This document shows positions 41,780 to 63,993 of a DNA stretch of 64,000 nucleotides, one piece after another. The DNA lies in contig NZ_ABCK01000010.1 in assembly GCF_000170755.1 (NCBI RefSeq), forward strand, positions 124,001 through 188,000, written 5' to 3'. The first letter of the stretch is position 1. Each line of letters begins with the position of its first letter. The position numbers were made by a program, and so were the translations under genes. The notes under the pieces are model-generated. The model did not search any database. It was given only the letters and a program-made list of their open reading frames with translations, and was not told where the DNA came from. The DNA is from Lentisphaera araneosa HTCC2155 (GTDB taxonomy: Bacteria; Verrucomicrobiota; Lentisphaeria; Lentisphaerales; Lentisphaeraceae).

Positions 41780-41798
41780 GATAATAACAATGTTGTAC
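41780..41798 (+). other. attI: attI simple site
   Basis: ATAAC-AAT-GTTGTAC mirrors the class 1 attI core (AAAAC-AAA-GTTAGGC): an L box, three bases, then R with the crossover between G 41792 and T 41793. The first cassette starts exactly there. Confidence 0.7.
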
Positions 41799-41880
41799 TA
41801 AAAAACAATTAAAAAAACATACTAAGAATTGTAAGCTAAGCTCACATGTATTATTTACCTAAATAAGGTAGGTAAAAGGT

Positions 41881-43049
41881 ATGAAACAAAGGACAGAGCA
41901 TAGTGTAGGAGAGGTTTTCGACGATTTGGTCAAGCTTACGAAGCCACACACGGATTGCAAAAAGAGCAACGAAAAACATTACAAGATATAGCTATGTGCC
42001 GAACTGCCTACCTTGGAGGACATAAGGAAATATGCTGTAAATGCGGAAATGAACGGCCAGTCTATAATTCATGCGGAAACACCAACTGTCCAATGTGTCA
42101 GGGTATACGCCGAAGAAGATGGTTAAAAGACCGATTAGATGAATTATTACCCGTATCTTATTTCCATAGTATTTTCACCCTGCCTCATGATCTGAACCCG
42201 ATAGCAAGATTTAACCAAAGAGAGATTTATAACTTACTCTTCAGAACTGCCGCAGACACACTGCTTTATCTGAGTCAAAAATATCATGATGCGACTCCCG
42301 CAATTATCGCCACACTTCATACTTGGGGTCAAGATTTATGTCTCCACCCTCATGTACATATTCTGGTCACAAGTGGGGGAATGAAAAAAGATGGGACATG
42401 GAAAGCTGGAAGAAACGACTACTTATTTGACGTTTTTGAAGCCTCAGAAGAATTCAAAAAAAGGTTTCTCCGAAAACTCAAAAATCTCAACAAACATAAG
42501 AAGTTAGTGAATGCGCAAGGCTTCCCTGAAATATATAAAATCATCGAAGAGAAACCCTGGGTCGTGAATATTCAAAAACCCTTTTCAGGTGCTGAAGTTG
42601 TTGTCGAATACTTGAGTCGTTATGTTTATCGAAGTGCCATCGCTAATGGTAGAATTACAGCAGTTGAAAATTCATTCATAAGTTTTGATATCAAAGATTA
42701 TAAAGATTTGGACGAGAAAGGAATTCCTCGACATAAAGATATCAGAATGAAACCTCAGGAATTCATCAGAAGATTTATGCAGCATGTACTACCCAAAGGA
42801 TTTCGAAGATCAAGGTTTTATGGCCTTTTTGCAGGAGCTCAACGAACCACAAGTAAGGAATACTGTAAGATACTCTTTGCTGAACTACTCAAAGAATTCA
42901 CCGGTAGCGAACGATTCAAAGAAGATGCTTGGCAACCCAAAGTCTGTGATTGCTGTGGCTACAGTGATTTTAAACGCGGCCAGGATATCCAGAATGAGAG
43001 ACCTCCTCCAATACTCTTTCACTATCAGGGGAGAAGGTTACATGCATAA
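41881..43049 (+). pseudogene. IS91-like HUH transposase, frameshifted copy
   Basis: Starts ATG 41881 (MKQRTEHSVGE) but has four T's at 41915-41918 where the other two copies have five, shifting the frame after about 12 codons. Translation could restart only well inside, beyond the N-terminal end, so a normal product is unlikely unless slippage occurs. The rest (zinc-binding Cys cluster, HPHVH, YLSRY) is unchanged. As the first cassette after attI it would be the most recent arrival under normal integron behaviour, consistent with a single mutation. Confidence 0.85.
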
Positions 43050-43260
43050 GAAACGAATCAGAGAGTCAACAATCCCTGACAAGAAGTACTTGATGCCGAA
43101 GTCGATAAAAAGAGCTCTTTATAAGGTAATGAAGCCTCTAATAGATGAAAATTTAGAGCCACATAGTTTCGAAGCCCGCCTAGACAGTAAAAAGCACCTG
43201 ATCACAGCATCAACTACACCCATATTAACTTGTTCAACAAAACAAAAACAGTTAGTTTAG
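43042..43260 (+). CDS. Small ORF downstream of transposase, copy 1
   Basis: 72 aa, basic (MHKKRIRESTIPDKKYLMP). Its ATG overlaps the transposase stop (ATGCATAA) and has a strong GGGGAGAAGG ribosome site five bases before it, so it is probably translated by coupling. No recognised domain. It is present unchanged in all three transposase cassettes. A longer frame from 42784 overlaps the transposase and is unlikely. Confidence 0.5.
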   Translation: MHKKRIRESTIPDKKYLMPKSIKRALYKVMKPLIDENLEPHSFEARLDSKKHLITASTTPILTCSTKQKQLV

Positions 43261-43305
43261 CACCATAGGGAAAGGAAATATGGGATCATCAATAATTGAA
43301 ATAAA

Positions 43306-43372
43306 GTACAACAAATCGTTGGAACTGAGGTTCTCGCTTAGGCTCGAACACAGCTCAACTCGAACGTTAGAC
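43306..43372 (+). repeat. attC: attC of cassette 1
   Basis: 67 bp. R'' GTACAAC complements the cassette's own start GTTGTAC; R' GTTAGAC opens cassette 2. Central hairpin TTCTCGCTTAGGCTCGAA. Confidence 0.9.
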
Positions 43373-43383
43373 TAGAATAAAAA

Positions 43384-43806
43384 ATGAAAAAATATTACTC
43401 AATAAAATGCATTTTTGTATATGAACCCGAAGACTCTGAATACCTTTACAGGTATGAAGAACGGATAACGCTTTGGCACACAAAAGATATGGATGAAGCA
43501 ATTAAACTAGCTGAGGAAGAAGCCACACAATATGCGAAAAAATCTAATAGTGAATATATAAAATATTGTGTCTCACATAAACTAGATGAAAAATATGGCG
43601 AAGGTAAGTCAGTCTATTCAACCAAAAGAAACTCAGATTTAGAGCCTGAACAATATTTAGATAATTTTTATGATACAGGAGATGAATGTATAATTAGTGA
43701 TGATCCTATTGGTGAATTGGAGAACTGTCTAGATTACGAACAAACTCTTCTAAAAGCTCTTGAGATGAATAAACGAAAAATCAAAAAATTGAAAACAGAA
43801 ATATAA
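43384..43806 (+). CDS. Cassette 2 protein, DUF4288-like
   Basis: 140 aa, soluble and acidic. The N-terminal half (YYSIKCIFVYE, then YRYEERITLWHTKDMDEAI and KLAEEEATQYA) resembles the DUF4288 family of small proteins with a strand-then-helix 'EERI...A' pattern; function unknown. The C-terminal 30 residues form a Lys-rich helix. The start lies 17 bases after the cassette boundary, the usual place; there is no clear ribosome site, as for several cassettes here. Family call is tentative. Confidence 0.6.
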   Translation: MKKYYSIKCIFVYEPEDSEYLYRYEERITLWHTKDMDEAIKLAEEEATQYAKKSNSEYIKYCVSHKLDEKYGEGKSVYSTKRNSDLEPEQYLDNFYDTGDECIISDDPIGELENCLDYEQTLLKALEMNKRKIKKLKTEI

Positions 43807-43812
43807 CACAAA

Positions 43813-43893
43813 GTCTAACCAAAAAATCGAACTGATATTTTCGTTTTGAATCAAATTTTAAATAGAAAATACAGCTCATTTAGGTCGTTCTAC
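43813..43893 (+). repeat. attC: attC of cassette 2
   Basis: 81 bp. R'' GTCTAAC pairs with the cassette start GTTAGAC; R' GTTCTAC belongs to cassette 3. Confidence 0.9.
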
Positions 43894-43922
43894 ATGAATA
43901 AAATAAAGGATAGAATTTGATA

Positions 43923-44216
43923 ATGGACACAGGAACTATTGGTGCAATTGCTGGAGCAATAATTGGCTTATTAGGATCATTTATTGGTGTCTATTGCAGT
44001 ATAAGCCAGAGTAAATCAGAAGATGAACGACAGTATGTTATTAAATCTAGTGTTGTCTTTACATTTGGTGTTTTAGCCTTTTTAGGACTCTTGTTTTATT
44101 TACCAAAGCCATATAATCATTTGATATGGATTCCCTATTCAATCTTGCTCCCTATCTCAATTAAAAAGATGAATAAACGAATAGAAGAAATTAGAAATAA
44201 AGAAACGAAAATGTAG
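43923..44216 (+). CDS. Cassette 3 small membrane protein
   Basis: 97 aa from ATG 43923 (a TTG at 43917 sits at better distance from AAGGA and is the alternative start). Glycine-rich first helix (GTIGAIAGAIIGLLGSFIGV), then two further membrane helices (VVFTFGVLAFLGLLFY and LIWIPYSILLPISI) and a charged cytoplasmic tail. No family recognised; compact multi-helix proteins recur in this array. Confidence 0.6.
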   Translation: MDTGTIGAIAGAIIGLLGSFIGVYCSISQSKSEDERQYVIKSSVVFTFGVLAFLGLLFYLPKPYNHLIWIPYSILLPISIKKMNKRIEEIRNKETKM

Positions 44217-44279
44217 AACCAAAAGCCGGAAGGAAGATTTTCGCTAAGGCTCAAATCTCCCTCAGCTTAGACGTTCTGC
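44213..44279 (+). repeat. attC: attC of cassette 3
   Basis: 67 bp. R'' GTAGAAC matches own start GTTCTAC; R' GTTCTGC. It overlaps the stop codon of the cassette gene (TAG in GTAGAAC). Confidence 0.9.
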
Positions 44280-44290
44280 ATAAATAAAAT

Positions 44291-44602
44291 ATGAATAAAT
44301 CAGCAGCAATAATAAATAATCAAACGAACTGTTCTGTAGTTCAAATGCCAGATAGAAAATTCCCTGGAATAGTTCTTCAGGGTGATAGTCTAAATATTAT
44401 TTATTCTAACTTGATGAAAGTTCTTGAACAAACAGAAGGTAAAATTTCAAAAGAAGAATTTTTAATTATTCTAGAACAAGCTGAATTGATTGAAGGTTAT
44501 TTAAATCAATATGAAAAGTCTCTAGATGAATCATCAATTGAATTACCCTATTCTAAATCATTCAATAAAACGACAAAAGATTATAAACATTACTGGGAAT
44601 AG
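44291..44602 (+). CDS. Cassette 4 protein, DUF6959-like
   Basis: 103 aa. The pattern NNQTNCSVVQMPDRKFPGIV, then LQGDSLNIIYSNLMKVLE and a C-terminal helix ending IELPY resembles the DUF6959 family (recalled R-x-FPG-hydrophobic-QGD signature). Soluble and acidic; function of the family unknown. The start is 17 bases after the boundary. Reasonably confident it is a real gene, less so of the family. Confidence 0.6.
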   Translation: MNKSAAIINNQTNCSVVQMPDRKFPGIVLQGDSLNIIYSNLMKVLEQTEGKISKEEFLIILEQAELIEGYLNQYEKSLDESSIELPYSKSFNKTTKDYKHYWE

Positions 44603-44607
44603 AAAAA

Positions 44608-44673
44608 GCAGAACCAACAAATCGAAGGAAGATTTTCGTTTCACTCAAATCTCCCTCATTTAAATCGTTAGAT
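44608..44673 (+). repeat. attC: attC of cassette 4
   Basis: 66 bp. R'' GCAGAAC against own start GTTCTGC; R' GTTAGAT. Confidence 0.9.
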
Positions 44674-44870
44674 CAGAATAAAATTTATAAGAATTGATGG
44701 AAATTCGCATCTTAAAAAGCAACTCACTTTATTCTTGGAATCACAGAATTAAGCTGAATAAATGCGAACTCAGCAATTCACCAAAAGTGAACGCAAACTG
44801 TGCATCAAATACGATTCCAAGTATATGCGGAATCAGCAATAAAAAAGAAAAATTAGTATTATTATCAACA

Positions 44871-46590
44871 CCTAAATCGTACGATTTTATTTCCCAAAGG
44901 TCGTGATACGCGTGTATAGACTATTTTAGGCATTACAAAAGGGATGATTTTTCTCCTTGAAGTCCATCTCGTTTATCAATTTGACTCCATTGCTCCAGAG
45001 ATCAGTTTATGGAGTTTTTCGATCTTCAGATTGTGATTTCTGTGTATTTCATCCATTATTTGGGCGTGAGGATCCTGGCGCTTATTGAAAAGCACCCGTT
45101 TTTAAAATGTATATTCAGCAACTAAAGAACAGGAAGAACCCAAGGCGTAAGTGATTTCTCCCATATTTGATCAAATTTCAACTCCCTCATTTTCCATGGG
45201 GTAATTTTGAGTGTCAATGAGCGTCCTTTATTAATGATTTTTCCTGCTAAATCAAAAAGTTTACGACGTACCGTAGTGGGGTAGCAGTTCCAAGAAAAAC
45301 CCGCAATGTTGCGTTTGAAAATCTGAAAGAGATTGAAGGATACAATACCCATTGAGTACCAAAGGGAGTTAGCGTGAAAGTCGAGACATGGCATCCTCTC
45401 ACTTGCGAAATCTTTAGCTGCACGGTGAGTGAGTTCATCAGCTCCGCGGGAATGATCATAATCAATTATTTCTTGATCGGAGCAAGATTTTACGTCAAGA
45501 TTTGTAAGGATAATACGACTTTCTAAACCTAATAAAGCTTCGCCATTCTCTTCTGTAGGCCGTAAAAACAAAGCTCGATACGCCATCTCTTTGGGCCAAG
45601 ATTTACGACGTTCTTGAAAAGTAAGGTAATGCCAAGTACAAGCTTTTTTACGATAGACGCCATCGAAGTTTTCGAGTTTTGTATTGGCATGAATCTTGTG
45701 ATCTGAATAGCGTTTCCCTGCACAAATAAAGTTGATTTTAAGCGCGTCGCAAGCAGCAAAATCTTTTGATCGTAATAACCACCATCCATTCGACGATGAC
45801 TGAATGTCTTCTCCAAGATTTTCACGAATCATTGGTACGATTTCTTGTAACATCTCAATAGCAACCCCATCGTGATTTGTTGAGCAATGACCTGATTGGA
45901 AATAAGTATCGATATACATGCCGTCCCATATGAGGTTGATTGGGTGATAGCCTTCTTTTTTCTTGTAGGTACATTTTACTCCCGCGCGGCATTTAGCGCC
46001 GTCGTTATCGTAGACACTGGAGTCTAGAAAGAGAATGACTTTATTCGGATTTTTAGCTTTGAGCGCACTAAGAAAAACCCTGCGGATTAAAGGACGAATC
46101 ATCTCAACATCTACTGTATAAGCTTTGTGAAGGATTCTTTTTAATGCAGCCGTACCTAGAGCAACTTCACAGCCTAAAAGTTTTTGCCAAGCTTCGTTTT
46201 CCTTCAGCGTATCAAAGGTGTTTAAACTACTTTCACGACCGTCCGCAAAAAAGAGTACAAGCTGTAAAAAAGCTTCTTCAAGCTCTATGCCTTTCTTGCT
46301 TTTTCTTAGATCTTTAAATACCTGTGCGAGCTCATCACAAATACCTGTGCCATTAATGAAATTAACAAAAGGTGCTAATCCTGCTTGAGAACTTAAGCAG
46401 TTTGTGGTGATTCCAATTTTTTTGATTTTTCTTCGACATTCTTTCTTGGATTTTCTAGTTTTTTTGATTTTCTTGGGCATCGTAAGTACGTGGTTTTTGG
46501 GTTGAGGTTTTTTGGTCGAAGCTAATTTAACCCAAACTCCACTTTTCACCCACCCAGTGAAGCTTTTATACACAATTCGTACTTCTTAGG
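44871..46590 (-). mobile_element. IS1380-like insertion sequence
   Basis: 1720 bp. Imperfect inverted ends CCTAAATCGTACGA and CCTAAGAAGTACGA, flanked by a 5-bp target duplication CAACA. It carries one transposase gene on the minus strand and lies inside cassette 5. Confidence 0.85.
45122..46573 (-). CDS. IS1380-family DDE transposase
   Basis: 483 aa; MPKKIKKTRKSKK at 46480 is the alternative start. Family-type segments: GTGICDELAQVF, LFFADGRESSLNTFDTL, KVILFLDSSVYDNDG (first Asp region), the long central strand domain, and SRGADELTHRAAKDFASERM (Glu region) ending in a C-terminal helix pair. The frame is intact, so the element may be active. It sits antiparallel to the cassettes and would block read-through transcription from upstream. 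Confidence 0.8.
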   Translation of the reverse strand: MYKSFTGWVKSGVWVKLASTKKPQPKNHVLTMPKKIKKTRKSKKECRRKIKKIGITTNCLSSQAGLAPFVNFINGTGICDELAQVFKDLRKSKKGIELEEAFLQLVLFFADGRESSLNTFDTLKENEAWQKLLGCEVALGTAALKRILHKAYTVDVEMIRPLIRRVFLSALKAKNPNKVILFLDSSVYDNDGAKCRAGVKCTYKKKEGYHPINLIWDGMYIDTYFQSGHCSTNHDGVAIEMLQEIVPMIRENLGEDIQSSSNGWWLLRSKDFAACDALKINFICAGKRYSDHKIHANTKLENFDGVYRKKACTWHYLTFQERRKSWPKEMAYRALFLRPTEENGEALLGLESRIILTNLDVKSCSDQEIIDYDHSRGADELTHRAAKDFASERMPCLDFHANSLWYSMGIVSFNLFQIFKRNIAGFSWNCYPTTVRRKLFDLAGKIINKGRSLTLKITPWKMRELKFDQIWEKSLTPWVLPVL

Positions 46591-46641
46591 CAACAGTAAA
46601 AAAGAAAAATTAGTATTATTATCAACAGTAAAAAAGAAGAG

Positions 46642-46705
46642 ATCTAACCATTAGATGCACCTGATACTCTCGTACCTCGAGCACAGGTGATCTAGGACGT
46701 TCGAT
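46642..46705 (+). repeat. attC: attC of cassette 5
   Basis: 64 bp. R'' ATCTAAC against own start GTTAGAT, 1.9 kb away because of the IS; R' GTTCGAT. Confidence 0.9.
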
Positions 46706-46711
46706 AATAAA

Positions 46712-47200
46712 ATGAAAAACTTACAAACATTAATCTGTGCATTAACGATATGTATTTATTTAAGTATAGGGCTAATTGGATCTATTTTAGCAAACCCATT
46801 AACACATAACTATAATAGTGGTAACCCAAATGCAGGATTAACGGAATTTGTACTTGTTTTTTTCGAACAAAATCAACCTTTATTTTTCTACACCATCACG
46901 CCGTTTGTTATCTGCATGAGTTTATTTTCATTAATTTCTCGAACAAACATAAAAATCTCTAAGTTATTTTGGTATTTTTATCTAACTCAAATTTTAGTAT
47001 TTATTTTGTACCTAGTTACAATTATTTTTTCTTTTGCTATTAACGAAGTGTCATTGATGCAAAACATGTATTCTGAACGACCAAAGGAACTTAATCAAAT
47101 GACTATTATTTTATTTATAGTCAATCTAAGCTTTATAATTGCAAGCTATCCTATATACAAACTAAATCGAACAAGTGAATCGAAGGAAGATCTTCGCTAA
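46712..47200 (+). CDS. Cassette 6 four-helix membrane protein
   Basis: 162 aa with four hydrophobic segments (about 5-27, 58-75, 87-112, 128-148) and a polar tail. No family recognised. The coding frame runs past the R'' box, and its stop lies in the loop of attC, so the last nine or so residues (TSESKEDLR) are encoded by recombination-site DNA and would change if the attC diverged. Confidence 0.65.
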   Translation: MKNLQTLICALTICIYLSIGLIGSILANPLTHNYNSGNPNAGLTEFVLVFFEQNQPLFFYTITPFVICMSLFSLISRTNIKISKLFWYFYLTQILVFILYLVTIIFSFAINEVSLMQNMYSERPKELNQMTIILFIVNLSFIIASYPIYKLNRTSESKEDLR

Positions 47201-47231
47201 GGCTCGATCTCCCTCATTCTAGTCGTTAGAT
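47166..47231 (+). repeat. attC: attC of cassette 6
   Basis: 66 bp. R'' ATCGAAC against own start GTTCGAT; R' GTTAGAT. Overlaps the 3' end of the gene. Confidence 0.9.
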
Positions 47232-47518
47232 CAGAATAAATTTAAAATATATTTTATCTTATTACATCATCTACTTAGCGACTCACTTTATTCTTGGAAT
47301 CACAGAATTAAGCTGAGTAAATGCGAACTCAGCAATTCACCAGAATTCAACGCAAACTGTGCATCGAATACGATTCCAAGTAGATGCGGAATCAGCAAAT
47401 AAAAAGAAATAAAAATCTAATTATCAACAGTAAAAAAGAAAAGATCTAACAAACGGATCGATCTGATACTTTCGTTATGAGTCAAATTTTAGATAGAAAG
47501 CACAGATCATCCTCGACG
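47226..47518 (+). other. Cassette 7: ORF-less, family I
   Basis: 293 bp, reference copy of the family. Structures: CTTGGAATC (47293-47301) can pair with GATTCCAAG (47372-47380); hairpin 1 GCTGAGT/ACTCAGC (47312-47333); hairpin 2 GATTCC/GGAATC (47372-47393), which competes with the long-range pairing. The frame through it lacks a start codon. Confidence 0.7.
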
Positions 47519-47524
47519 TTAGAT
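47444..47524 (+). repeat. attC: attC of cassette 7
   Basis: 81 bp, the commonest type in the array. R'' ATCTAAC; R' GTTAGAT. Confidence 0.9.
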
Positions 47525-47810
47525 CAGAATAAAATTCATAAGAATTGATAGAAATTCGCATCTTAAAAAGCGACTCACTTTATTCTTGGAATCACAGAAT
47601 TAAGCTGAGTAAATGCGATGTCAGCAATTCACCAAAAGTAAACGCAAACTGTGCATCGAACACGATTCCAAGTATATGCGGAATCAGCAAATAAAAAGAA
47701 ATAAAAGTCTAATTATCAACAGTAAAAAAGAAAAGATCTAACAAACGGATCGATCTGATACTTTCGTTATGAGTCAAATTTTAGATAGAAAGTACAGATC
47801 ATCCTCGACG
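47519..47810 (+). other. Cassette 8: ORF-less, family I
   Basis: 292 bp. It has a different left arm from cassette 7 (AAATTCGCATCTTAAAAAG type) and the same hairpin block with GATGTC in place of GAACTC, a variant shared only with cassette 33. Confidence 0.7.
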
Positions 47811-47816
47811 TTGTAC
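47736..47816 (+). repeat. attC: attC of cassette 8
   Basis: 81 bp. R'' ATCTAAC; R' GTTGTAC, the start of the second transposase cassette. Confidence 0.9.
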
Positions 47817-47898
47817 TAAAAAACAATTAAAAAAACATACTAAGAATTGTAAGCTAAGCTCACATGTATTATTTACCTAAATAAGGTAGGTAAAAGGT

Positions 47899-49068
47899 AT
47901 GAAACAAAGGACAGAGCATAGTGTAGGAGAGGTTTTTCGACGATTTGGTCAAGCTTACGAAGCCACACACGGATTGCAAAAAGAGCAACGAAAAACATTA
48001 CAAGATATAGCTATGTGCCGAACTGCCTACCTTGGAGGACATAAGGAAATATGCTGTAAATGCGGAAATGAACGGCCAGTCTATAATTCATGCGGAAACA
48101 CCAACTGTCCAATGTGTCAGGGTATACGCCGAAGAAGATGGTTAAAAGACCGATTAGATGAATTATTACCCGTATCTTATTTCCATAGTATTTTCACCCT
48201 GCCTCATGATCTGAACCCGATAGCAAGATTTAACCAAAGAGAGATTTATAACTTACTCTTCAGAACTGCCGCAGACACACTGCTTTATCTGAGTCAAAAA
48301 TATCATGATGCGACTCCCGCAATTATCGCCACACTTCATACTTGGGGTCAAGATTTATGTCTCCACCCTCATGTACATATTCTGGTCACAAGTGGGGGAA
48401 TGAAAAAAGATGGGACATGGAAAGCTGGAAGAAACGACTACTTATTTGACGTTTTTGAAGCCTCAGAAGAATTCAAAAAAAGGTTTCTCCGAAAACTCAA
48501 AAATCTCAACAAACATAAGAAGTTAGTGAATGCGCAAGGCTTCCCTGAAATATATAAAATCATCGAAGAGAAACCCTGGGTCGTGAATATTCAAAAACCC
48601 TTTTCAGGTGCTGAAGTTGTTGTCGAATACTTGAGTCGTTATGTTTATCGAAGTGCCATCGCTAATGGTAGAATTACAGCAGTTGAAAATTCATTCATAA
48701 GTTTTGATATCAAAGATTATAAAGATTTGGACGAGAAAGGAATTCCTCGACATAAAGATATCAGAATGAAACCTCAGGAATTCATCAGAAGATTTATGCA
48801 GCATGTACTACCCAAAGGATTTCGAAGATCAAGGTTTTATGGCCTTTTTGCAGGAGCTCAACGAACCACAAGTAAGGAATACTGTAAGATACTCTTTGCT
48901 GAACTACTCAAAGAATTCACCGGTAGCGAACGATTCAAAGAAGATGCTTGGCAACCCAAAGTCTGTGATTGCTGTGGCTACAGTGATTTTAAACGCGGCC
49001 AGGATATCCAGAATGAGAGACCTCCTCCAATACTCTTTCACTATCAGGGGAGAAGGTTACATGCATAA
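47899..49068 (+). CDS. IS91-like HUH transposase
   Basis: 389 aa. An N-terminal zinc-binding cluster (Cys 52, 53, 55, 65, 70, 73; GNTNCPMCQ) precedes the HUH motif HPHVH (156-160) and the catalytic tyrosine motif VEYLSRYVYRSAIANGRI (Tyr 244 and 248), the arrangement of IS91/ISCR transposases. A CDCCGY pair near 366 may bind a second zinc. It would nick single-stranded DNA and move by rolling circle. AAAAGGT directly abuts the ATG, and a hairpin covers the leader. The gene is embedded as an ordinary integron cassette. Full-length and intact. Confidence 0.88.
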   Translation: MKQRTEHSVGEVFRRFGQAYEATHGLQKEQRKTLQDIAMCRTAYLGGHKEICCKCGNERPVYNSCGNTNCPMCQGIRRRRWLKDRLDELLPVSYFHSIFTLPHDLNPIARFNQREIYNLLFRTAADTLLYLSQKYHDATPAIIATLHTWGQDLCLHPHVHILVTSGGMKKDGTWKAGRNDYLFDVFEASEEFKKRFLRKLKNLNKHKKLVNAQGFPEIYKIIEEKPWVVNIQKPFSGAEVVVEYLSRYVYRSAIANGRITAVENSFISFDIKDYKDLDEKGIPRHKDIRMKPQEFIRRFMQHVLPKGFRRSRFYGLFAGAQRTTSKEYCKILFAELLKEFTGSERFKEDAWQPKVCDCCGYSDFKRGQDIQNERPPPILFHYQGRRLHA

Positions 49069-49279
49069 GAAACGAATCAGAGAGTCAACAATCCCTGACA
49101 AGAAGTACTTGATGCCGAAGTCGATAAAAAGAGCTCTTTATAAGGTAATGAAGCCTCTAATAGATGAAAATTTAGAGCCACATAGTTTCGAAGCCCGCCT
49201 AGACAGTAAAAAGCACCTGATCACAGCATCAACTACACCCATATTAACTTGTTCAACAAAACAAAAACAGTTAGTTTAG
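49061..49279 (+). CDS. Small ORF downstream of transposase, copy 2
   Basis: 72 aa; same sequence and same stop-start overlap as at 43042, here behind an intact transposase. The Shine-Dalgarno GGGGAGAAGG lies inside the transposase 3' end. Perhaps an accessory DNA-binding protein, given its basic charge; unproven. Confidence 0.5.
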   Translation: MHKKRIRESTIPDKKYLMPKSIKRALYKVMKPLIDENLEPHSFEARLDSKKHLITASTTPILTCSTKQKQLV

Positions 49280-49324
49280 CACCATAGGGAAAGGAAATAT
49301 GGGATCATCAATAATTGAAATAAA

Positions 49325-49391
49325 GTACAACAAATCGTTGGAACTGAGGTTCTCGCTTAGGCTCGAACACAGCTCAACTCGAACGTTAGAA
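49325..49391 (+). repeat. attC: attC of cassette 9
   Basis: 67 bp. R'' GTACAAC; R' GTTAGAA. Confidence 0.9.
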
Positions 49392-49403
49392 CAGGAATAT
49401 ACA

Positions 49404-49766
49404 ATGACGATAATTATCCCAACAATATTCTTTATCATTGCATTAATCTCTATTTATAACAAAAAACGAAACGCTTCATTAATTGCGGTATCCGCATTAT
49501 TTATTTCTATTTATTTGCTGAATATGCAAAATACAGTTCATCATGGTTATCAACACAGTGCTTCAATTAAAGCATTTTATAAAATTTCGGAAGAATTAAA
49601 AAAACAAAACGTACAACCAGTAATTGAGTCAATTGATGAATCTTTAAAGATTAGTTGGGAAGAGCAGTCTGGAGATAAATTTATTGGTTATATGATTGAT
49701 GAAAGAATTAAAAAGAAAACAAAAGAAATTGAGAAAGAAAAAGTTCTAACCAACGGATCGAACTGA
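49404..49766 (+). CDS. Cassette 10 protein with N-terminal membrane helices
   Basis: 120 aa from ATG 49404; AGGA lies eight bases before it. A longer frame would begin in the previous cassette and is rejected. Two hydrophobic segments (TIIIPTIFFIIALISIY and ASLIAVSALFISIYLL) are followed by a charged helical tail rich in Lys/Glu. The last residues (VLTNGSN) run into attC. No family recognised. Confidence 0.6.
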   Translation: MTIIIPTIFFIIALISIYNKKRNASLIAVSALFISIYLLNMQNTVHHGYQHSASIKAFYKISEELKKQNVQPVIESIDESLKISWEEQSGDKFIGYMIDERIKKKTKEIEKEKVLTNGSN

Positions 49767-49833
49767 TGACCATGCTACGCATGGACATCAATCCGATCCG
49801 TAGTTAATTCACAGCTCATCCTCAACGTTAGTT
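49744..49833 (+). repeat. attC: attC of cassette 10
   Basis: 90 bp with an extra terminal hairpin CCATGCTACGCATGG. R'' TTCTAAC; R' GTTAGTT. Confidence 0.9.
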
Positions 49834-50081: not shown

Positions 50082-50090
50082 TAACACATA

Positions 50091-50532: not shown

Positions 50533-50546
50533 CTAGAATAAATAAT

Positions 50547-56209: not shown

Positions 56210-56215
56210 TTAGTG
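56134..56215 (+). repeat. attC: attC of cassette 27
   Basis: 82 bp. R'' TACTAAC; R' GTTAGTG. Confidence 0.9.
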
Positions 56216-56227
56216 AGAAATAAAAAT

Positions 56228-56605
56228 ATGAATAATAAAATAAACAACATCGAATTCAAAAAAGAACGTTGGAGATACTTTTCATTTGCATACATAAGTA
56301 TAGCATTTTTTCCCATTGTTCTAGGAATGTCCTACGAATCAATACAATCAAAAAATTCATTCGGAATTGCTTTATGTAGCATACTTACAATTTCATACTT
56401 GATAATAATTGTGAAATCATGCGTTAACCTTACCAAGATTGTAAAAGCTATTAAAAACAAAAAAGAATATATTGATATAAGCCCAGTTAATATCGTAACA
56501 TCAGTCACTAATAGATCACTAGAAAAACGGGAATATAAGTTCTTATTCGCGTTTGCTACACTGATTTACATATCCATAATAATTGGAATAATAATGGAAA
56601 GATAA
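56228..56605 (+). CDS. Cassette 28 membrane protein
   Basis: 125 aa from ATG 56228; an upstream in-frame codon at 56213 sits inside the R' box and is rejected. Three hydrophobic segments (YISIAFFPIVLGMSY; IALCSILTISYLIIIV; FLFAFATLIYISIIIGII) with a basic loop between the second and third (KAIKNKKEY). It ends just before the longest attC in the array. No family recognised. Confidence 0.55.
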   Translation: MNNKINNIEFKKERWRYFSFAYISIAFFPIVLGMSYESIQSKNSFGIALCSILTISYLIIIVKSCVNLTKIVKAIKNKKEYIDISPVNIVTSVTNRSLEKREYKFLFAFATLIYISIIIGIIMER

Positions 56606-56606
56606 T

Positions 56607-56725
56607 CACTAACCAACGGATCGAGCTGATACCTACGTATGTCATGAAACATGTTAGAGGTATCAACTCTTAACGTGAAACATGTTTCACGCCAAACGGG
56701 TACAAGCTCATCCTCAACGTTCTGT
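56607..56725 (+). repeat. attC: attC of cassette 28
   Basis: 119 bp, VCR-sized. It contains a GTGAAACATGTTTCAC perfect palindrome in its terminal structure. R'' CACTAAC; R' GTTCTGT. Confidence 0.9.
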
Positions 56726-57017
56726 AGGAATAATGAAAAATAATTTTAGAGCAAAGCGAATCTTAAAAAGCAACTCACTCTATTCTTGGAATCACAGAAT
56801 TAAGCTGAGTAAATGCGAACTCAGCAATTCACCAGAAGTAAACGCAAACTGTGCATCAAATACGATTCCGAGTATATGCGGAATCAGCAAATAGAATGTA
56901 GTCTTATAGAAATGAAAAATAGAAAATACAGAACAAACGGATGCACCTGATACTTTAGCTTGGCACTCAAAATGCGAAGCATTTTTCACGCCAATCTAGT
57001 ACAGGTAATCCTCAACG
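56720..57017 (+). other. Cassette 29: family I element with a possible 53-codon frame
   Basis: 298 bp. Here the family I frame does have an ATG (56733; MKNNFRAKRILKSNSLYSWN onward), ending at 56894. GATTCCGAG keeps pairing with CTTGGAATC through one G-U. Because other members lack a start, structure rather than protein is favoured. Confidence 0.55.
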
Positions 57018-57023
57018 TTCTGT
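56928..57023 (+). repeat. attC: attC of cassette 29
   Basis: 96 bp, with stem AAAATGCGAAGCATTTTT. R'' ACAGAAC; R' GTTCTGT. Confidence 0.9.
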
Positions 57024-57358
57024 AGGAATAATGAAAAATATGTTTTGAGTAAAACGAATCTGAAAAAGCAGATCTCCAAAGTCTCAATAATTAATCAACC
57101 ATTTCAAGAAACTACGGAACATAAATCAATCACATCAAAGTGAATCACCTACTCTACTGAACGCAGATTTAATCTGAGTAAATGCGGAATCAGCATTTCA
57201 CCAAACTTAAACGCAAATCATTCCTCAAAAAACGATTCCGAGTATATGCGGAATCAGCAATTAAAAAAAGAATAAAAGACAATACAGAACCAACGGATCG
57301 ATCTGATACTTTCGTTATGAGTCAAATTTTAGATAGAAAGTACAGATCATCCTCGACG
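57018..57358 (+). other. Cassette 30: ORF-less, diverged family I
   Basis: 341 bp. It keeps both ATGCGGAATCAGCA loops and GATTCCGAG. A one-base length change between the hairpins breaks the reading frame seen in other members. Confidence 0.6.
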
Positions 57359-57364
57359 TTATAC
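57284..57364 (+). repeat. attC: attC of cassette 30
   Basis: 81 bp. R'' ACAGAAC; R' GTTATAC. Confidence 0.9.
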
Positions 57365-57384
57365 TAAAAGGAAAAAATGAAAAA

Positions 57385-57849
57385 ATGAAAAAAATATTAT
57401 TATCCACAATCACTTTTTTGATCCTTCAACTGAGTAGTTATGCCACTACTAATTCAAAATATGATTTAATGAAAACCCCCACATATTTATTAGATAAACG
57501 TTTTGATTATAAAAAAGCGACTGTTAATGGAATTAAAATTGGAGATGAAATTTCAAAAATTAATTCTGACAACATAAAAGAGGATATATCTGACTATATT
57601 CACATGAAAGATGGAAGTCGCTATAAAATCAAAGATCAAACTGTAGTTGCTATAGGACTCCCACCTAATGTAGTGAAAAATTTAGGCATTAATTCTGAAC
57701 AGAAATTATTTAAAATTTTTGGACCTCATACTGATAAAAGAAGTAACGCTGTAATGATAAGGTATTATTTTGAAAAACAACATTTAAACTTTTTTTGGAA
57801 CCATCGTAAGTCAAGAAATGAACACTTATTCATTGGTAATAAATTTTAA
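57385..57849 (+). CDS. Cassette 31 secreted protein
   Basis: 154 aa, signal peptide MKKILLSTITFLILQLSSYA. The mature part contains a repeated GI-x-IGDEISKINSD / G-SRYKIKDQTVVAIGLP pattern reminiscent of small beta-sandwich inhibitors, not assignable. A two-codon mini-frame (ATG 57377) sits between the AAGG site and the true start at 57385. It ends just before its attC. Confidence 0.6.
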   Translation: MKKILLSTITFLILQLSSYATTNSKYDLMKTPTYLLDKRFDYKKATVNGIKIGDEISKINSDNIKEDISDYIHMKDGSRYKIKDQTVVAIGLPPNVVKNLGINSEQKLFKIFGPHTDKRSNAVMIRYYFEKQHLNFFWNHRKSRNEHLFIGNKF

Positions 57850-57851
57850 AA

Positions 57852-57932
57852 GTATAACCAGAAACTGGAGTTGATACTTTCGTTATGAGTCAAATTTTAG
57901 ATAGAAAGTACAACTCAGTTTAGTCGTTAGAT
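57852..57932 (+). repeat. attC: attC of cassette 31
   Basis: 81 bp. R'' GTATAAC; R' GTTAGAT. Confidence 0.9.
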
Positions 57933-58219
57933 CAGAATAAAATTCATAAGAATTGATGGAAATTCGCATCATAAGAAGCGACTCACTTTATTCTTAGAAT
58001 CACAGAATTAAGCTGAGTAAATGCGAACTCAGCAATTCACCAGAAGTAAACGCAAACTGTGCATCGAATACGATTCCAAGTATATGCGGAATCAGCAAAT
58101 AAAAAGAAATAAAAATCTAATTATCAACAGTAAAAAAGAAAAGATCTAACAAGAAACTGGAGTTGATACTTTCGTTGTGAATCAAATTTTAGATAGAAAG
58201 TACGAACTCAGTTTAGACG
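57927..58219 (+). other. Cassette 32: ORF-less, family I
   Basis: 293 bp with cassette 8 type left arm. Upstream helix strand is CTTAGAATC: the change leaves an A opposite C in the long-range pairing, one of the few mismatches in the family. Confidence 0.65.
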
Positions 58220-58225
58220 TTAGAT
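58144..58225 (+). repeat. attC: attC of cassette 32
   Basis: 82 bp. R'' ATCTAAC; R' GTTAGAT. Confidence 0.9.
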
Positions 58226-58512
58226 CAAAATAAATTTAAAATAAATTTTGTCTCAATACGTCATCTAGTGAGTAACTCACTTTATTCTTGGAATCACAGA
58301 ATTAAGCTGAGTAAATGCGATGTCAGCAATTCACCAAAAGTAAACGCAAACTGTGCATCGAACACGATTCCAAGTATATGCGGAATCAGCAAATAAAAAG
58401 AAATAAAAGTCTAATTATCAACAGTAAAAAAGAAAAGATCTAACAAACGGATCGATCTGATACTTTCGTTATGAGTCAAATTTTAGATAGAAAGTACAGA
58501 TCATCCTGGACG
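58220..58512 (+). other. Cassette 33: ORF-less, family I (mosaic)
   Basis: 293 bp. A cassette 7 type left arm is joined to the right half found in cassette 8 (GATGTC and CGAACACG variants), evidence for recombination within the family. Confidence 0.65.
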
Positions 58513-58518
58513 TTATGT
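58438..58518 (+). repeat. attC: attC of cassette 33
   Basis: 81 bp. R'' ATCTAAC; R' GTTATGT. Confidence 0.9.
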
Positions 58519-58533
58519 GACAACAAATAAACA

Positions 58534-59181
58534 ATGTATACACTCATAAAACACGAAAATAGAACTAGAGGTTGGATTCCAATTATAGTTGCAACCATAT
58601 TTTTGGGCCCATTAACACACGATGGAGAACTGATAGAAAAAAACAGTGAAATTCAAAAAATTTCAGACTATTTTATAATAGAAAATTTCATACTTCTATT
58701 TTGTCTGTTTGGTATATTAAATGGAATTAAAATTTTTATAAAACCTTATCATTTTATGTCGTGTAATTATAAGGGAATAAATATTGGTAAGAATAAACAA
58801 TTTTTCACTTGGGAACAAATAGCTGACATATCCAAAGGCCAAATACAAACAGGAGGTAAGATTAACGACCCTAAATACAGTCCTGCAATAGTTATAAAGT
58901 TAACTAATGACCTTTTTGAACATGGCATGTTCATGCATGAACATGCAAAATATATAAGTGAAAATACATTTACGTTTAAAGATGATAATCCAGAAGAAAC
59001 AATAGATAACATCCTTAAATTTTGGACCAATGATCATAAATCTAGTATACAAAATGAAATGGATCCTGAAATTAAACAATTAGTAGAATCAGGAGACACT
59101 TTAAATGCTCTTAAATTATGCAAAGAAAAATTGAACTTATCTCTCAAAGAATCACACGACTATATTAAGAAAAGCACATAA
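58534..59181 (+). CDS. Cassette 34 membrane protein with L7/L12 C-terminal-like tail
   Basis: 215 aa. Two N-terminal membrane helices (WIPIIVATIFLGP; IENFILLFCLFGILNGI), then a strand-rich segment (KQFFTWEQIADISKGQIQTG) like the PH-type domain of cassette 14. The last 35 residues (LVESGDTLNALKLCKEKLNL, then LKESHDYIKK) match the helix-turn-helix fold of the ribosomal L7/L12 C-terminus, seen in many small membrane proteins. The stop lies within R''. Possible membrane-bound sensor; function unknown. Confidence 0.6.
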   Translation: MYTLIKHENRTRGWIPIIVATIFLGPLTHDGELIEKNSEIQKISDYFIIENFILLFCLFGILNGIKIFIKPYHFMSCNYKGINIGKNKQFFTWEQIADISKGQIQTGGKINDPKYSPAIVIKLTNDLFEHGMFMHEHAKYISENTFTFKDDNPEETIDNILKFWTNDHKSSIQNEMDPEIKQLVESGDTLNALKLCKEKLNLSLKESHDYIKKST

Positions 59182-59257
59182 CAAGAAACTGGAGTTGATA
59201 CTTTCGTTGTGAATCAAATTTTAGATAGAAAGTACGAACTCAGTTTAGACGTTAGAT
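59176..59257 (+). repeat. attC: attC of cassette 34
   Basis: 82 bp. R'' ACATAAC; R' GTTAGAT. Confidence 0.9.
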
Positions 59258-59543
59258 CAGAATAAAATTTATAATAATTGATGGAAATTCGCATCTTAAA
59301 AAGCAACTCACTTTATTCTTGGAATCACAGAATTAAGCTGAGTAAATGCGAACTCAGCAATTCACCAAAAGTAAACGCAAACTGTGCATCGAATACGATT
59401 CCAAGTAGATGCGGAATCAGCAAATAAAAAGAAATAAAAGTCTAATTATCAACAGTAAAAAAGAAAAGATCTAACAAACGGATCGATCTGATACTTTCGT
59501 TATGAGTCAAATTTTAGATAGAAAGTACAGATCATCCTCGACG
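59252..59543 (+). other. Cassette 35: ORF-less, family I
   Basis: 292 bp with cassette 8 type left arm; all three helices intact. Confidence 0.7.
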
Positions 59544-59549
59544 TTAGTA
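59469..59549 (+). repeat. attC: attC of cassette 35
   Basis: 81 bp. R'' ATCTAAC; R' GTTAGTA. Confidence 0.9.
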
Positions 59550-59760
59550 TAGAATAAATTTTAATGGTAGAAACGATTATCCAATAAATCGCGGATGCAT
59601 GAATTTAGAATTATCTGAACCAAGAATTTGTTAGAACAAATTGAATCTGAAGTTTTAAATAAAAAACAAGAAATAGAAAAAAAATACTAACCAGAAACTG
59701 GAGTTGATACTTTCGTTGTGAATCAAATTTTAGATAGAAAGTACGAACTCAGTTTAGACG
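59544..59760 (+). other. Cassette 36: ORF-less, family III
   Basis: 217 bp, the shortest cassette. Diverged from cassettes 24 and 27 and missing about 20 bases downstream of the shared core. Confidence 0.65.
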
Positions 59761-59766
59761 TTAGGT
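59685..59766 (+). repeat. attC: attC of cassette 36
   Basis: 82 bp. R'' TACTAAC; R' GTTAGGT. Confidence 0.9.
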
Positions 59767-59778
59767 TGAACATAAAAA

Positions 59779-60018
59779 ATGAAAAATAAATCCATATTCT
59801 TCTTGGTAGCAGCTACCTTTTTATTCTCTGGAATTATCATATTATCATCTCATGAAAACAAAAATGTAGAATATGTAATTACAGATTCAAATGGACAAAT
59901 AATTGAAGCACCCGAAAATGAGAATTCTCGAAGATTGAAGCGACTTGGGTACTTTCAATTCACAGCTAGTTTTATCTTTCTAATCTATGGAATTAAACTA
60001 AAAAAGAACAAAACCTAA
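59779..60018 (+). CDS. Cassette 37 two-helix small membrane protein
   Basis: 79 aa: an N-terminal helix (SIFFLVAATFLFSGIIIL), a polar loop of about 30 residues (VEYVITDSNGQIIEAPEN) and a second helix (FQFTASFIFLIYGI) with a lysine tail. Hairpin topology with the loop outside. The stop TAA falls within R''. No family recognised. Confidence 0.55.
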   Translation: MKNKSIFFLVAATFLFSGIIILSSHENKNVEYVITDSNGQIIEAPENENSRRLKRLGYFQFTASFIFLIYGIKLKKNKT

Positions 60019-60094
60019 CAAGAAACTGGAGTTGATACTTTCGTTGTGAGTCACAATTTAGATAGAAAGTACGAACTCAGTTTAGACGTTCTGT
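60013..60094 (+). repeat. attC: attC of cassette 37
   Basis: 82 bp. R'' ACCTAAC; R' GTTCTGT. Confidence 0.9.
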
Positions 60095-60118
60095 AAAAAA
60101 TAAAAAAGAAGAGAAACA

Positions 60119-60931
60119 ATGGAAAACATAATCAACTATTCACTGTTTATATACCTACTAACACTCCTGATTTTAATCACTCCTCTAGAGTGGTCACAAA
60201 ACAGCAACGTAAAGCATATTAAAACACTATTTGGTATACTTACATATTTTGGAGTTATGGCTACAGGTTATACAATTGGTATATTACCTGCATTAGGGAC
60301 ATGGGTTATTTTTACCGCATATAGTATGGGTATGTTTTATTATGTCGGTCATTTAAGAGTAAATGTATATAAAATACCTCTAGATGAAAAAAACTCTTTT
60401 TTATCAGTCTTTATTATGCAGTTTATATGTTGGCCTTTTAGCCAAGGTAATATTCACAATGTATATAAATTTTCAGTTTTAAGAAAAACAGGTGCTATTA
60501 GTCCTCATAAAACTGAAAAGAAATTAAAAATTAAATCTGTTGATCAATTACTACAAACAGAATTTAATGATTGTGGTTATTGTTATGGTGTTAGTTATAG
60601 AACTGACTTAAAATTCAGAAATTCTGATGCAGTTCAAATGTTAGCTCATGACATAGGGCACATGGACTCTCACATTCCTCCCAACGGTATCAAGACATAT
60701 CTTGACCACATGAATATTGACATTGTTGCACAAGGGTTAAAAACCCTTAAAACGCTTAACTCACCTAATCATACCATTTTGAAAAATGCAATGAATAAGG
60801 TGGAAGTGGATGAAGAAGGATATATAGAAACAGAAAACTATAACGATTTAGAGGATTGGGATCAATGGGATTACGATGATGAAAATCGTTTCAAAGAATT
60901 TTTAGAAGAAAATAGAGATAAATTTAAATAA
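60119..60931 (+). CDS. Cassette 38 membrane protein with soluble acidic C-terminus
   Basis: 270 aa; AGAAGAGAAA before the ATG is the best ribosome site in the array. Three N-terminal hydrophobic segments (LFIYLLTLLILITPLEW; LFGILTYFGVMATGYTIG; WVIFTAYSMGMFYYVG), then a cytoplasmic domain with DCGYCYGVSYRTD and MLAHDIGHMDSHIPP (possible metal ligands His/Asp/Cys), then a very acidic tail (DLEDWDQWDYDDENRF). No family recognised. Confidence 0.6.
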   Translation: MENIINYSLFIYLLTLLILITPLEWSQNSNVKHIKTLFGILTYFGVMATGYTIGILPALGTWVIFTAYSMGMFYYVGHLRVNVYKIPLDEKNSFLSVFIMQFICWPFSQGNIHNVYKFSVLRKTGAISPHKTEKKLKIKSVDQLLQTEFNDCGYCYGVSYRTDLKFRNSDAVQMLAHDIGHMDSHIPPNGIKTYLDHMNIDIVAQGLKTLKTLNSPNHTILKNAMNKVEVDEEGYIETENYNDLEDWDQWDYDDENRFKEFLEENRDKFK

Positions 60932-60936
60932 ATAAT

Positions 60937-61000
60937 ACAGAACCAAGGATCGCAGTGAATACTCTCGTTCCTCGAGTATCACTAAATCCAGACGTTAGGC
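60937..61000 (+). repeat. attC: attC of cassette 38
   Basis: 64 bp with stem ATACTCTCGTTCCTCGAGTAT. R'' ACAGAAC; R' GTTAGGC. Confidence 0.9.
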
Positions 61001-61010
61001 TGTAATAATA

Positions 61011-61427
61011 ATGAAAAAAGATAAAGATCATTTTGGATTAGGAACATTATTTGGCATAATTCTTTTTGGAATAAAAATCATATCAAATGATTCGTTGCTC
61101 ATTCAAATTACTGAAAAGAATTATTATCAACCCTCAAAAGTTGCATGTGTTCTATTTTTAATAATTGTTGCCATATACTTATTTTTGAAAATTTTTAAAG
61201 AATATAAACACTTTACGAAATTCATAAAAACTTATATAACTTTAGATATAGCCATATTAATAATTATCTTTTATATAGATATATTTTTCGATAAATACTT
61301 TTCTTATAAATCTAGATCATACTCAAGGTACAATTTTTCTGGACTGTACCCTTTAATAATCTTTATCTGTACATTCTATAGTTTAATCACATCTATCAAA
61401 TCACTAAAAAATAAGACAATAGCCTAA
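61011..61427 (+). CDS. Cassette 39 four-helix membrane protein
   Basis: 138 aa; hydrophobic segments near 9-25, 44-60, 75-92 and 112-128, with basic and tyrosine-rich loops (YFSYKSRSYSRYNFS). No conserved motif recognised. It ends inside R'' (GCCTAAC supplies TAA). Confidence 0.55.
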   Translation: MKKDKDHFGLGTLFGIILFGIKIISNDSLLIQITEKNYYQPSKVACVLFLIIVAIYLFLKIFKEYKHFTKFIKTYITLDIAILIIIFYIDIFFDKYFSYKSRSYSRYNFSGLYPLIIFICTFYSLITSIKSLKNKTIA

Positions 61428-61503
61428 CAAGAAACTGGAGTTGATACTTTCGTTATGAATCAAATTTTAGATAGAAAGTACGAACTCAGTTTAGACGTTA
61501 TGG
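61422..61503 (+). repeat. attC: attC of cassette 39
   Basis: 82 bp. R'' GCCTAAC; R' GTTATGG. Confidence 0.9.
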
Positions 61504-61525
61504 TAATAAATAAAGACAGAAAATA

Positions 61526-62068
61526 GTGCGAACCCCACTTACAAAAAAAACTCAGATAGTTATAGCTATTTTTATTCTTTTGTTATTTGGCCTAAGTTTA
61601 AAATTTAAATATTCTGAATCTAACATAAAAGATTTTAAAAAGACTTGGGCAAACACTTACTTAAAAAAGTTTTTCAACATAAATCAGGTTAACTCAAGAA
61701 AACAATTTCAATTAACTGATTCTATGATGGGACGCACATATTGTGCGTTAAAAGGATCAGCAACAGTTAAAAGTGAAAAATCATTAGAGAGCTTCATAAA
61801 GAAATTAAGCTCACAGAAAGTTAACAAAATTGAAGTTCTCAATGACAAGCAATTAATTTTACACTTTGTACAAAGAGAAGTTCATTTCTTTTACCCCAAT
61901 GCGAAATCATTAAGAAATCAAATTATGAATCGCGCTCAAGGTTATGTTTATTACTTTTATGTAAACGAAGGTGCTCCTATTCTCATTTTCAAAAGCGATG
62001 AAACTACATTTAAAATCAAATCCTATTTCCCATGGAACAACACAGTACTCGAAAAAGGAAAACCATAA
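61526..62068 (+). CDS. Cassette 40 single-span membrane-anchored protein
   Basis: 180 aa with a GTG start at 61526; no in-frame ATG lies closer to the cassette boundary. One N-terminal helix (IVIAIFILLLFGLSL), then a soluble domain of about 150 residues with alternating strands (KKLSSQKVNKIEVLNDKQLI; RAQGYVYYFYVNEGAPILIF). No family recognised. The stop TAA lies in the R'' box (CCATAAC). Confidence 0.55.
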   Translation: MRTPLTKKTQIVIAIFILLLFGLSLKFKYSESNIKDFKKTWANTYLKKFFNINQVNSRKQFQLTDSMMGRTYCALKGSATVKSEKSLESFIKKLSSQKVNKIEVLNDKQLILHFVQREVHFFYPNAKSLRNQIMNRAQGYVYYFYVNEGAPILIFKSDETTFKIKSYFPWNNTVLEKGKP

Positions 62069-62126
62069 CCAAGGATCGGAGTTGAGATTCTCGTACCTCG
62101 AATCCAACTCAATCCAGACGTTAGAT
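62063..62126 (+). repeat. attC: attC of cassette 40
   Basis: 64 bp. R'' CCATAAC; R' GTTAGAT. Confidence 0.9.
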
Positions 62127-62412
62127 CAGAATAAATTTAAAATATATTTTATCTTAATACGTCATCTACTTAGCGACTCTCTTTATTCTTGGAATCACAG
62201 AATTAAGCTGATTAAATGCGAACTCAGCAATTCAACAGAAGCAAGCGCAAACTACGCATCAAATACGATTCCAAGTATATGCGGAATCGCAAATAAAAAG
62301 AAATAAAAGTCTAATTATAAACAATCAAAGAGAAAAGATCTAACAAATCACTGGAGTAGATACTTTCGTTTGGAGTCAAATTTTAAATAGAAAGTACTAC
62401 TCAGTTCAGACG
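62121..62412 (+). other. Cassette 41: ORF-less, family I
   Basis: 292 bp, apparently identical to cassette 21 and placed directly before a transposase cassette, as cassette 8 is. Confidence 0.7.
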
Positions 62413-62418
62413 TTGTAC
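62338..62418 (+). repeat. attC: attC of cassette 41
   Basis: 81 bp. R'' ATCTAAC; R' GTTGTAC. Confidence 0.9.
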
Positions 62419-62500
62419 TAAAAAACAATTAAAAAAACATACTAAGAATTGTAAGCTAAGCTCACATGTATTATTTACCTAAATAAGGTAGGTAAAAGGT

Positions 62501-63670
62501 ATGAAACAAAGGACAGAGCATAGTGTAGGAGAGGTTTTTCGACGATTTGGTCAAGCTTACGAAGCCACACACGGATTGCAAAAAGAGCAACGAAAAACAT
62601 TACAAGATATAGCTATGTGCCGAACTGCCTACCTTGGAGGACATAAGGAAATATGCTGTAAATGCGGAAATGAACGGCCAGTCTATAATTCATGCGGAAA
62701 CACCAACTGTCCAATGTGTCAGGGTATACGCCGAAGAAGATGGTTAAAAGACCGATTAGATGAATTATTACCCGTATCTTATTTCCATAGTATTTTCACC
62801 CTGCCTCATGATCTGAACCCGATAGCAAGATTTAACCAAAGAGAGATTTATAACTTACTCTTCAGAACTGCCGCAGACACACTGCTTTATCTGAGTCAAA
62901 AATATCATGATGCGACTCCCGCAATTATCGCCACACTTCATACTTGGGGTCAAGATTTATGTCTCCACCCTCATGTACATATTCTGGTCACAAGTGGGGG
63001 AATGAAAAAAGATGGGACATGGAAAGCTGGAAGAAACGACTACTTATTTGACGTTTTTGAAGCCTCAGAAGAATTCAAAAAAAGGTTTCTCCGAAAACTC
63101 AAAAATCTCAACAAACATAAGAAGTTAGTGAATGCGCAAGGCTTCCCTGAAATATATAAAATCATCGAAGAGAAACCCTGGGTCGTGAATATTCAAAAAC
63201 CCTTTTCAGGTGCTGAAGTTGTTGTCGAATACTTGAGTCGTTATGTTTATCGAAGTGCCATCGCTAATGGTAGAATTACAGCAGTTGAAAATTCATTCAT
63301 AAGTTTTGATATCAAAGATTATAAAGATTTGGACGAGAAAGGAATTCCTCGACATAAAGATATCAGAATGAAACCTCAGGAATTCATCAGAAGATTTATG
63401 CAGCATGTACTACCCAAAGGATTTCGAAGATCAAGGTTTTATGGCCTTTTTGCAGGAGCTCAACGAACCACAAGTAAGGAATACTGTAAGATACTCTTTG
63501 CTGAACTACTCAAAGAATTCACCGGTAGCGAACGATTCAAAGAAGATGCTTGGCAACCCAAAGTCTGTGATTGCTGTGGCTACAGTGATTTTAAACGCGG
63601 CCAGGATATCCAGAATGAGAGACCTCCTCCAATACTCTTTCACTATCAGGGGAGAAGGTTACATGCATAA
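62501..63670 (+). CDS. IS91-like HUH transposase
   Basis: 389 aa, same sequence as the protein at 47899: zinc cluster, HPHVH and YLSRY motifs intact. That two full-length copies 14.6 kb apart show no visible difference indicates very recent copying, or gene conversion. The host-like codon use and clean ribosome site suggest it is expressible from its own leader without Pc. Confidence 0.88.
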   Translation: MKQRTEHSVGEVFRRFGQAYEATHGLQKEQRKTLQDIAMCRTAYLGGHKEICCKCGNERPVYNSCGNTNCPMCQGIRRRRWLKDRLDELLPVSYFHSIFTLPHDLNPIARFNQREIYNLLFRTAADTLLYLSQKYHDATPAIIATLHTWGQDLCLHPHVHILVTSGGMKKDGTWKAGRNDYLFDVFEASEEFKKRFLRKLKNLNKHKKLVNAQGFPEIYKIIEEKPWVVNIQKPFSGAEVVVEYLSRYVYRSAIANGRITAVENSFISFDIKDYKDLDEKGIPRHKDIRMKPQEFIRRFMQHVLPKGFRRSRFYGLFAGAQRTTSKEYCKILFAELLKEFTGSERFKEDAWQPKVCDCCGYSDFKRGQDIQNERPPPILFHYQGRRLHA

Positions 63671-63881
63671 GAAACGAATCAGAGAGTCAACAATCCCTGA
63701 CAAGAAGTACTTGATGCCGAAGTCGATAAAAAGAGCTCTTTATAAGGTAATGAAGCCTCTAATAGATGAAAATTTAGAGCCACATAGTTTCGAAGCCCGC
63801 CTAGACAGTAAAAAGCACCTGATCACAGCATCAACTACACCCATATTAACTTGTTCAACAAAACAAAAACAGTTAGTTTAG
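63663..63881 (+). CDS. Small ORF downstream of transposase, copy 3
   Basis: 72 aa, unchanged from the copies at 43042 and 49061; overlaps the transposase stop by the same ATGCATAA arrangement. Conservation in three identical cassettes is uninformative about selection, so its reality rests on the strong ribosome site and tight overlap. Confidence 0.5.
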   Translation: MHKKRIRESTIPDKKYLMPKSIKRALYKVMKPLIDENLEPHSFEARLDSKKHLITASTTPILTCSTKQKQLV

Positions 63882-63926
63882 CACCATAGGGAAAGGAAAT
63901 ATGGGATCATCAATAATTGAAATAAA

Positions 63927-63993
63927 GTACAACAAATCGTTGGAACTGAGGTTCTCGCTTAGGCTCGAACACAGCTCAACTCGAACGTTCGAT
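63927..63993 (+). repeat. attC: attC of cassette 42
   Basis: 67 bp. R'' GTACAAC; R' GTTCGAT, the first bases of cassette 43. Confidence 0.9.

Follow-up and report, generated by a model that had tools for sequence, protein, structure and literature searches.

The window analyzed here, meaning the whole 64,000-nucleotide stretch of DNA under study (C10:124001-188000), comes from the genome of Lentisphaera araneosa (6.02 Mb in 81 contigs), a species already in the literature among integron-bearing organisms (PMC3108266). It holds an integron in which the integrase gene is followed by an IntI paralogue, attI, and a long cassette array that reaches near the contig end (Table 1). The paralogue is without the IntI-specific insert, and the His of its HxxR motif is replaced by Ala; the two other IntI-like paralogues, at L031 10848-12038 and L068 7612-8805, have Asp there. 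The tandem of intI and paralogue is found again on C47 and in a congener, G005.

We built an attC covariance model from 14 cassettes, all other than the IS91 cassette described below. Its stems are backed by covariation (0.266 versus 0.098 in shuffles, with slid controls at 0.001 to 0.088), and its matches occur throughout the window array, while the 41 kb before the array yielded a single match, at an E value of 0.5. A search of the array with Rfam gave no credible match. Short gene-less cassettes of ~250 to 300 bp, at many places between positions 44613 and 62418, are highly repeated at 60 to 99% identity, far above the repetition of coding cassettes. The region of cassette 5 contains an IS1380-type transposase on the minus strand (45122-46573), present in 3 copies in this genome's arrays.

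Table 1. Features of the integron and of the two IS91-type elements. Positions are those of the window except in the last two rows; the arrow marks the crossover.
Feature	Position	Strand	Basis or remark
Integron integrase gene, intI	38563..39825	-	TIGR02249, E=3.1e-117, passes the cut-off
Second IntI-like recombinase, between intI and attI	40099..41247	-	TIGR02249, 212.7 bits, cut-off 265
attI end of the integron, ahead of cassette 1	41780..41792	+	...AACAATG↓; resembles AAAACCATG↓
Element 1, copy 1 (cassette 1), 1574 bp	41793..43366	+	one-base deletion, transposase frame broken near start
attC of copy 1, including R' bases of the next cassette	43306..43372	+	attC model, 40.3 bits, E=1.2e-6; fold
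Element 1, copy 2 (cassette 9), 1575 bp, intact	47811..49385	+	
IS91-family transposase of copy 2, 389 aa, intact	47899..49068	+	NF033538, E=4.6e-111; PF04986, PF14319
Reported small ORF, 158 aa, overlapping the transposase	48803..49279	+	no family match
attC of copy 2	49325..49391	+	attC model, 35 bits, E=2.8e-5
Element 1, copy 3 (cassette 42), 1575 bp, intact	62413..63987	+	
IS91-family transposase of copy 3, 389 aa	62501..63670	+	identical to copy 2
attC of copy 3	63927..63993	+	attC model, 38.3 bits, E=4.1e-6
Copies of element 2	L008 (C10:188.6-191.9 kb), L035, L037, L038, L041		
Relatives of element 2	L083/L090/L093, L086/L091/L094, L084/L089		

Cassettes 1, 9, and 42, numbered by counting attC model matches along the array, are one 1,575-bp unit with an IS91-family transposase and its own folded attC, which we call element 1. 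These numbers are exactly those given in the first-pass annotation. Copies 2 and 3 are identical, and copy 1 has lost one T from a T-run close to the start codon. Two further copies lie in two other integrons of the genome (C13 and C33), the former as the first cassette, at attI, and the latter as the third cassette, adjoining an intI fragment at the contig end; all copies in this genome other than copy 1 match at 100%. Two of the five are located directly at attI (window copy 1 and the C13 copy). The sequence AAAACCATG↓ precedes the first cassettes of C13, C33, and G005, and the attI end of the window is similar; the attI of C13 leads into the IS91 cassette, while those of C33 and G005 lead into other cassettes.

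The borders proposed earlier as crossover-exact proved to be so. All five copies show G↓TTGTAC as their left border and ...CTCGAACG↓TT as their right border, and with the copies of G005 included the G↓TT crossover is present at both ends in 11 of 11, all at integron core sites, at junctions with attI or attC, across five integron arrays in two species. No copy was found outside arrays in either genome, a search that the first-pass annotation had called for. The attC upstream of element 1 stays whole, and element 1 supplies one of its own. The attC model, trained on other cassettes, recovered the attC of all 11 copies, and its R'' box (GTACAAC) pairs at seven of seven positions with GTTGTAC, the 5' end of the cassette itself. 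The bottom strand folds into R and L stems with an unpaired spacer and an extrahelical base (z=-2.97), the fold of the G005 cassette attC being weaker (z=-1.49). Between the species, the attC is 93.5% identical, compared with 53.5% in the noncoding leader 5' of the gene and 65.6% in the noncoding stretch that follows it. The evidence is good that the unit is an integron gene cassette and bears its own attC.

The transposase matches the NCBIfam IS91 transposase model and the Pfam domains Y2_Tnp and Zn_Tnp_IS91, and the HUH motif HPHVH and the Y2 motif YLSRY can be read in its sequence, so that the feature of the IS91 family, an HUH Y2 transposase with an N-terminal zinc domain, is present. Comparison with the G005 version gave a dN of 0.059 against a dS of 0.714 (dN/dS, 0.08), and the gene is therefore kept by selection. 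The small ORF that the first-pass annotation had listed in the cassette was rejected as a second gene. It is open in the window and interrupted by a stop in G005, has no family match, and in the 72 codons downstream of the transposase has evolved neutrally, with 24, 27, and 25 differences at codon positions 1, 2, and 3 and a dN/dS of about 0.96.

In G005, an 89%-identical version is present in six copies, five identical and one with 12 differing positions; they are spread over two integrons, and their ends are of the same type. Directly after one of these copies (L033, about 15478-15591) lies an extra partial attC of ~50 bp (GTTGAACTGATC...CTCGAACGTT) with GTT on either side. An IntI product or a one-ended product was considered for this repeat, and plain tandem duplication fits equally. 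Beyond the genus, no relative above about 41% identity appeared among matches with E values of at most 1e-60 in 388 genomes of the phylum; no close relatives were found in GTDB contigs or viral contigs, and plasmid matches were all below 60% identity.

The transposase gene of element 1 has multiplied more than any other intact cassette gene in both related genomes. Among 278 ORFs of at least 90 aa in those arrays of this genome that were read, element 1, with five copies, and a second IS91 element, with four to six hits per ORF, lead; the IS1380-type transposase and a 122-aa ORF have three each, and all remaining ORFs have at most two. Among 62 ORFs in G005, element 1 has six copies, and no other ORF has more than two. 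These numbers fit the suggestion that such a cassette could multiply inside arrays and start new ones, with five copies in three integrons here and six in two integrons in G005, outnumbering every nontransposase ORF in both species. The gene-less cassettes are many times repeated too, but are less alike than the copies of element 1, which are identical while their neighbors are unlike, the identity ending exactly at the crossover; duplication of whole blocks is therefore no explanation.

The second IS91 element (element 2) is 2,474 bp long, and combines a XerD-like recombinase with an IS91 transposase about 30% identical to that of element 1. Counting full and partial copies together, there are about eight. 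Each copy that can be read lies in an attC, its insertion point falling precisely at R'' (...TAAC or ATAAC, then the element, then the rest of the attC). Read along its transposase, the element is followed by GTTRRRY on the bottom strand, and its other end supplies a new R'' box, GTTCAAC. Element 2 thus interrupts the attC of its host cassette, as IS1111-attC elements do, whereas element 1 does not. Relatives of element 2 at ~40% identity in three other genomes of the phylum (G023, G273, and G177) are similarly placed in attC-like sites, judged by eye from hairpins and core. The 3' end of element 2 plus GTTRRRY gives a weak match to the attC model (E values of 0.014 to 0.22 over 310 kb; 20.2 bits with filters off), and shuffled sequences fold as well as it does. 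The corresponding end of the G023 relative folds strongly and matches its own 5' end at seven of seven positions. Every IS91-family gene found in L. araneosa and G005 is at a core site. So element 2 and its relatives make up an attC-choosing IS91 clade with a preference for integron core sites, and an IS91 oriIS, a hairpin plus GTT, has a layout close to that of attC.

Elements of the IS91 family carry an oriIS and a terIS, transpose by a rolling-circle route, and have a 3' end that abuts the target GTTC (or CTTG), with no target duplication. Insertion sites of IS91 and ISCR elements have been given as GAAC/GTTC or GTTC/CTTG (PMC7758954, PMC6052338). The 3' flank of element 1 begins with GTT in all 11 copies (GTTA in eight, GTTC in two, and GTTG in one), and GTT is also the integron core. 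In element 1, the IS91-type target (element end, then GTT) and the cassette crossover (G↓TTRRRY) coincide. Since insertion by IntI and an IS91-type insertion before GTT give the same borders, the borders cannot decide the mover. IS91-type ends unlike the cassette borders, which had been put forward as the sign of a chance cassette fit, were not seen; that contrast, however, does not discriminate, as GTT serves both.

As to what moves the unit, we lean, with some reserve, toward an IS91-family element that has turned gene cassette and that would be moved both by IntI and by its own HUH enzyme, with the attC as oriIS. IntI would excise the unit and insert it at attI like an ordinary cassette. 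The HUH transposase would act on it too, using the 3' hairpin, which is the attC, as its oriIS and treating the adjoining GTTRRRY core as an IS91-type target, and the element would copy itself between integron core sites, being a cassette at every step. Mobility by IntI, as predicted from sequence, is well supported by the anatomy, and core-to-core copying by the element's own enzyme is what we infer in addition. More tentatively, and as something we would hesitate to call probable, one hairpin might serve two unrelated systems, the cassette attC being the oriIS of the transposase, with core-to-core copying by the HUH enzyme and with oriIS and attC interconvertible in evolution. We favor the dual element because of its complete attC, its attI copies together with selection on its transposase, its copy number, the restriction of IS91 genes to core sites, and the behavior of element 2. 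Conservation of the attC, selection on the enzyme, and the leading copy number among unlike neighbors all speak for it, as does the insertion of element 2 and its relatives in three genomes beside an attC core, with the oriIS side against GTT. Other observations speak against it. The site chosen by element 2 is R'', on the opposite strand, rather than R', which makes the analogy inexact, and its attC-like end is weak by both model and fold. The 3' flanks of element 1 are mostly GTTA where GTTC is canonical. Insertion at attI, with no hairpin beside the target, fits IntI better.

In a rival account, the unit is an ordinary cassette whose gene just happens to be that of a transposase; IntI alone moves it, and the enzyme is idle in the spread through arrays. 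Canonical attC and crossovers speak for it, as does the location of two of the five copies at attI, the site that IntI prefers. Were copies placed at random over some 205 core sites, including five attI sites, that location would have a chance of about 0.6%, by a rough estimate, although an attI position could also arise through deletion of the cassettes in between. Gene-less cassettes gain high copy number by the same route and are repeated as well, and IntI alone can therefore raise copy number. This account leaves unexplained the top copy number in both species and the purifying selection on the transposase, as an enzyme that is only along for the ride should decay, and we consider it rather unlikely. 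Still less probable is a self-moving IS91 element that targets GTTRRRY at attC and attI junctions, never moved by IntI, its cassette form a by-product. The coincidence of the IS91-type target with the core fits this, and element 2 and its relatives in other genomes do target attC without IntI-like placement. Self-movement alone, however, needs neither an R'' that matches the 5' end of the element itself at seven of seven positions nor a conserved whole attC, and the attI copies have no hairpin beside the target. That a single real copy was placed several times in assembly is hardly credible. The assembly is still a draft, in 81 contigs, several of which end within the 2.5-kb element 2; against this, identity stops exactly at the crossover with flanks unlike, and G005, in two contigs, independently has six copies with the same ends.

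Integron biology has long asked where cassettes get their attC sites. With elements that have an HUH single-strand nickase and integron core ends, one of them with a complete attC, it becomes directly testable whether cassettes are made, copied, or spread by enzymes of the IS91 type. ISCR elements and class 1 integrons meet in resistance plasmids, and the shared GTT target may bear on the formation of ISCR/class 1 integron complexes. More generally, one jumping-gene system may ride on, or work through, another.

A search of the open-access literature shows that an IS91-like cassette is not new in kind, with ISShvi3 and ISCR28 reported earlier. In Shewanella, an IS91-like element forming a cassette structure, ISShvi3, has been mentioned (PMC9229058), which likewise joins an IS91-like element and attC in cassette form; that mention is one sentence on one case, which reports neither copy number nor conservation across species, nor that R'' matches the 5' end of the element itself. 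ISCR28 of the sul4 modules, for which attCs are reported at the ends (PMC12772301), similarly has an IS91-like transposase with attC at its end or right after, and its authors also leave undecided whether IntI or the transposase is the mover. The attC data are not shown there, and ISCR28 is tied to resistance modules and is not multiplied through a large chromosomal array, unlike element 1. A cassette in the plasmid integron of Vibrio salmonicida codes for a transposase (PMC1382264), as element 1 does, although its transposase family and copy behavior are not given in that report. Other mobile elements that choose attC sites, the IS1111-attC elements and group IIC-attC introns (PMC11187229, PMC7923331), use other enzymes and insert into the attC of another cassette, whereas element 1 brings its own; element 2 is the closer to them in behavior. 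What is new here, relative to these systems, is a multicopy, two-species case backed by selection, in which the IS91 target coincides with the cassette border.
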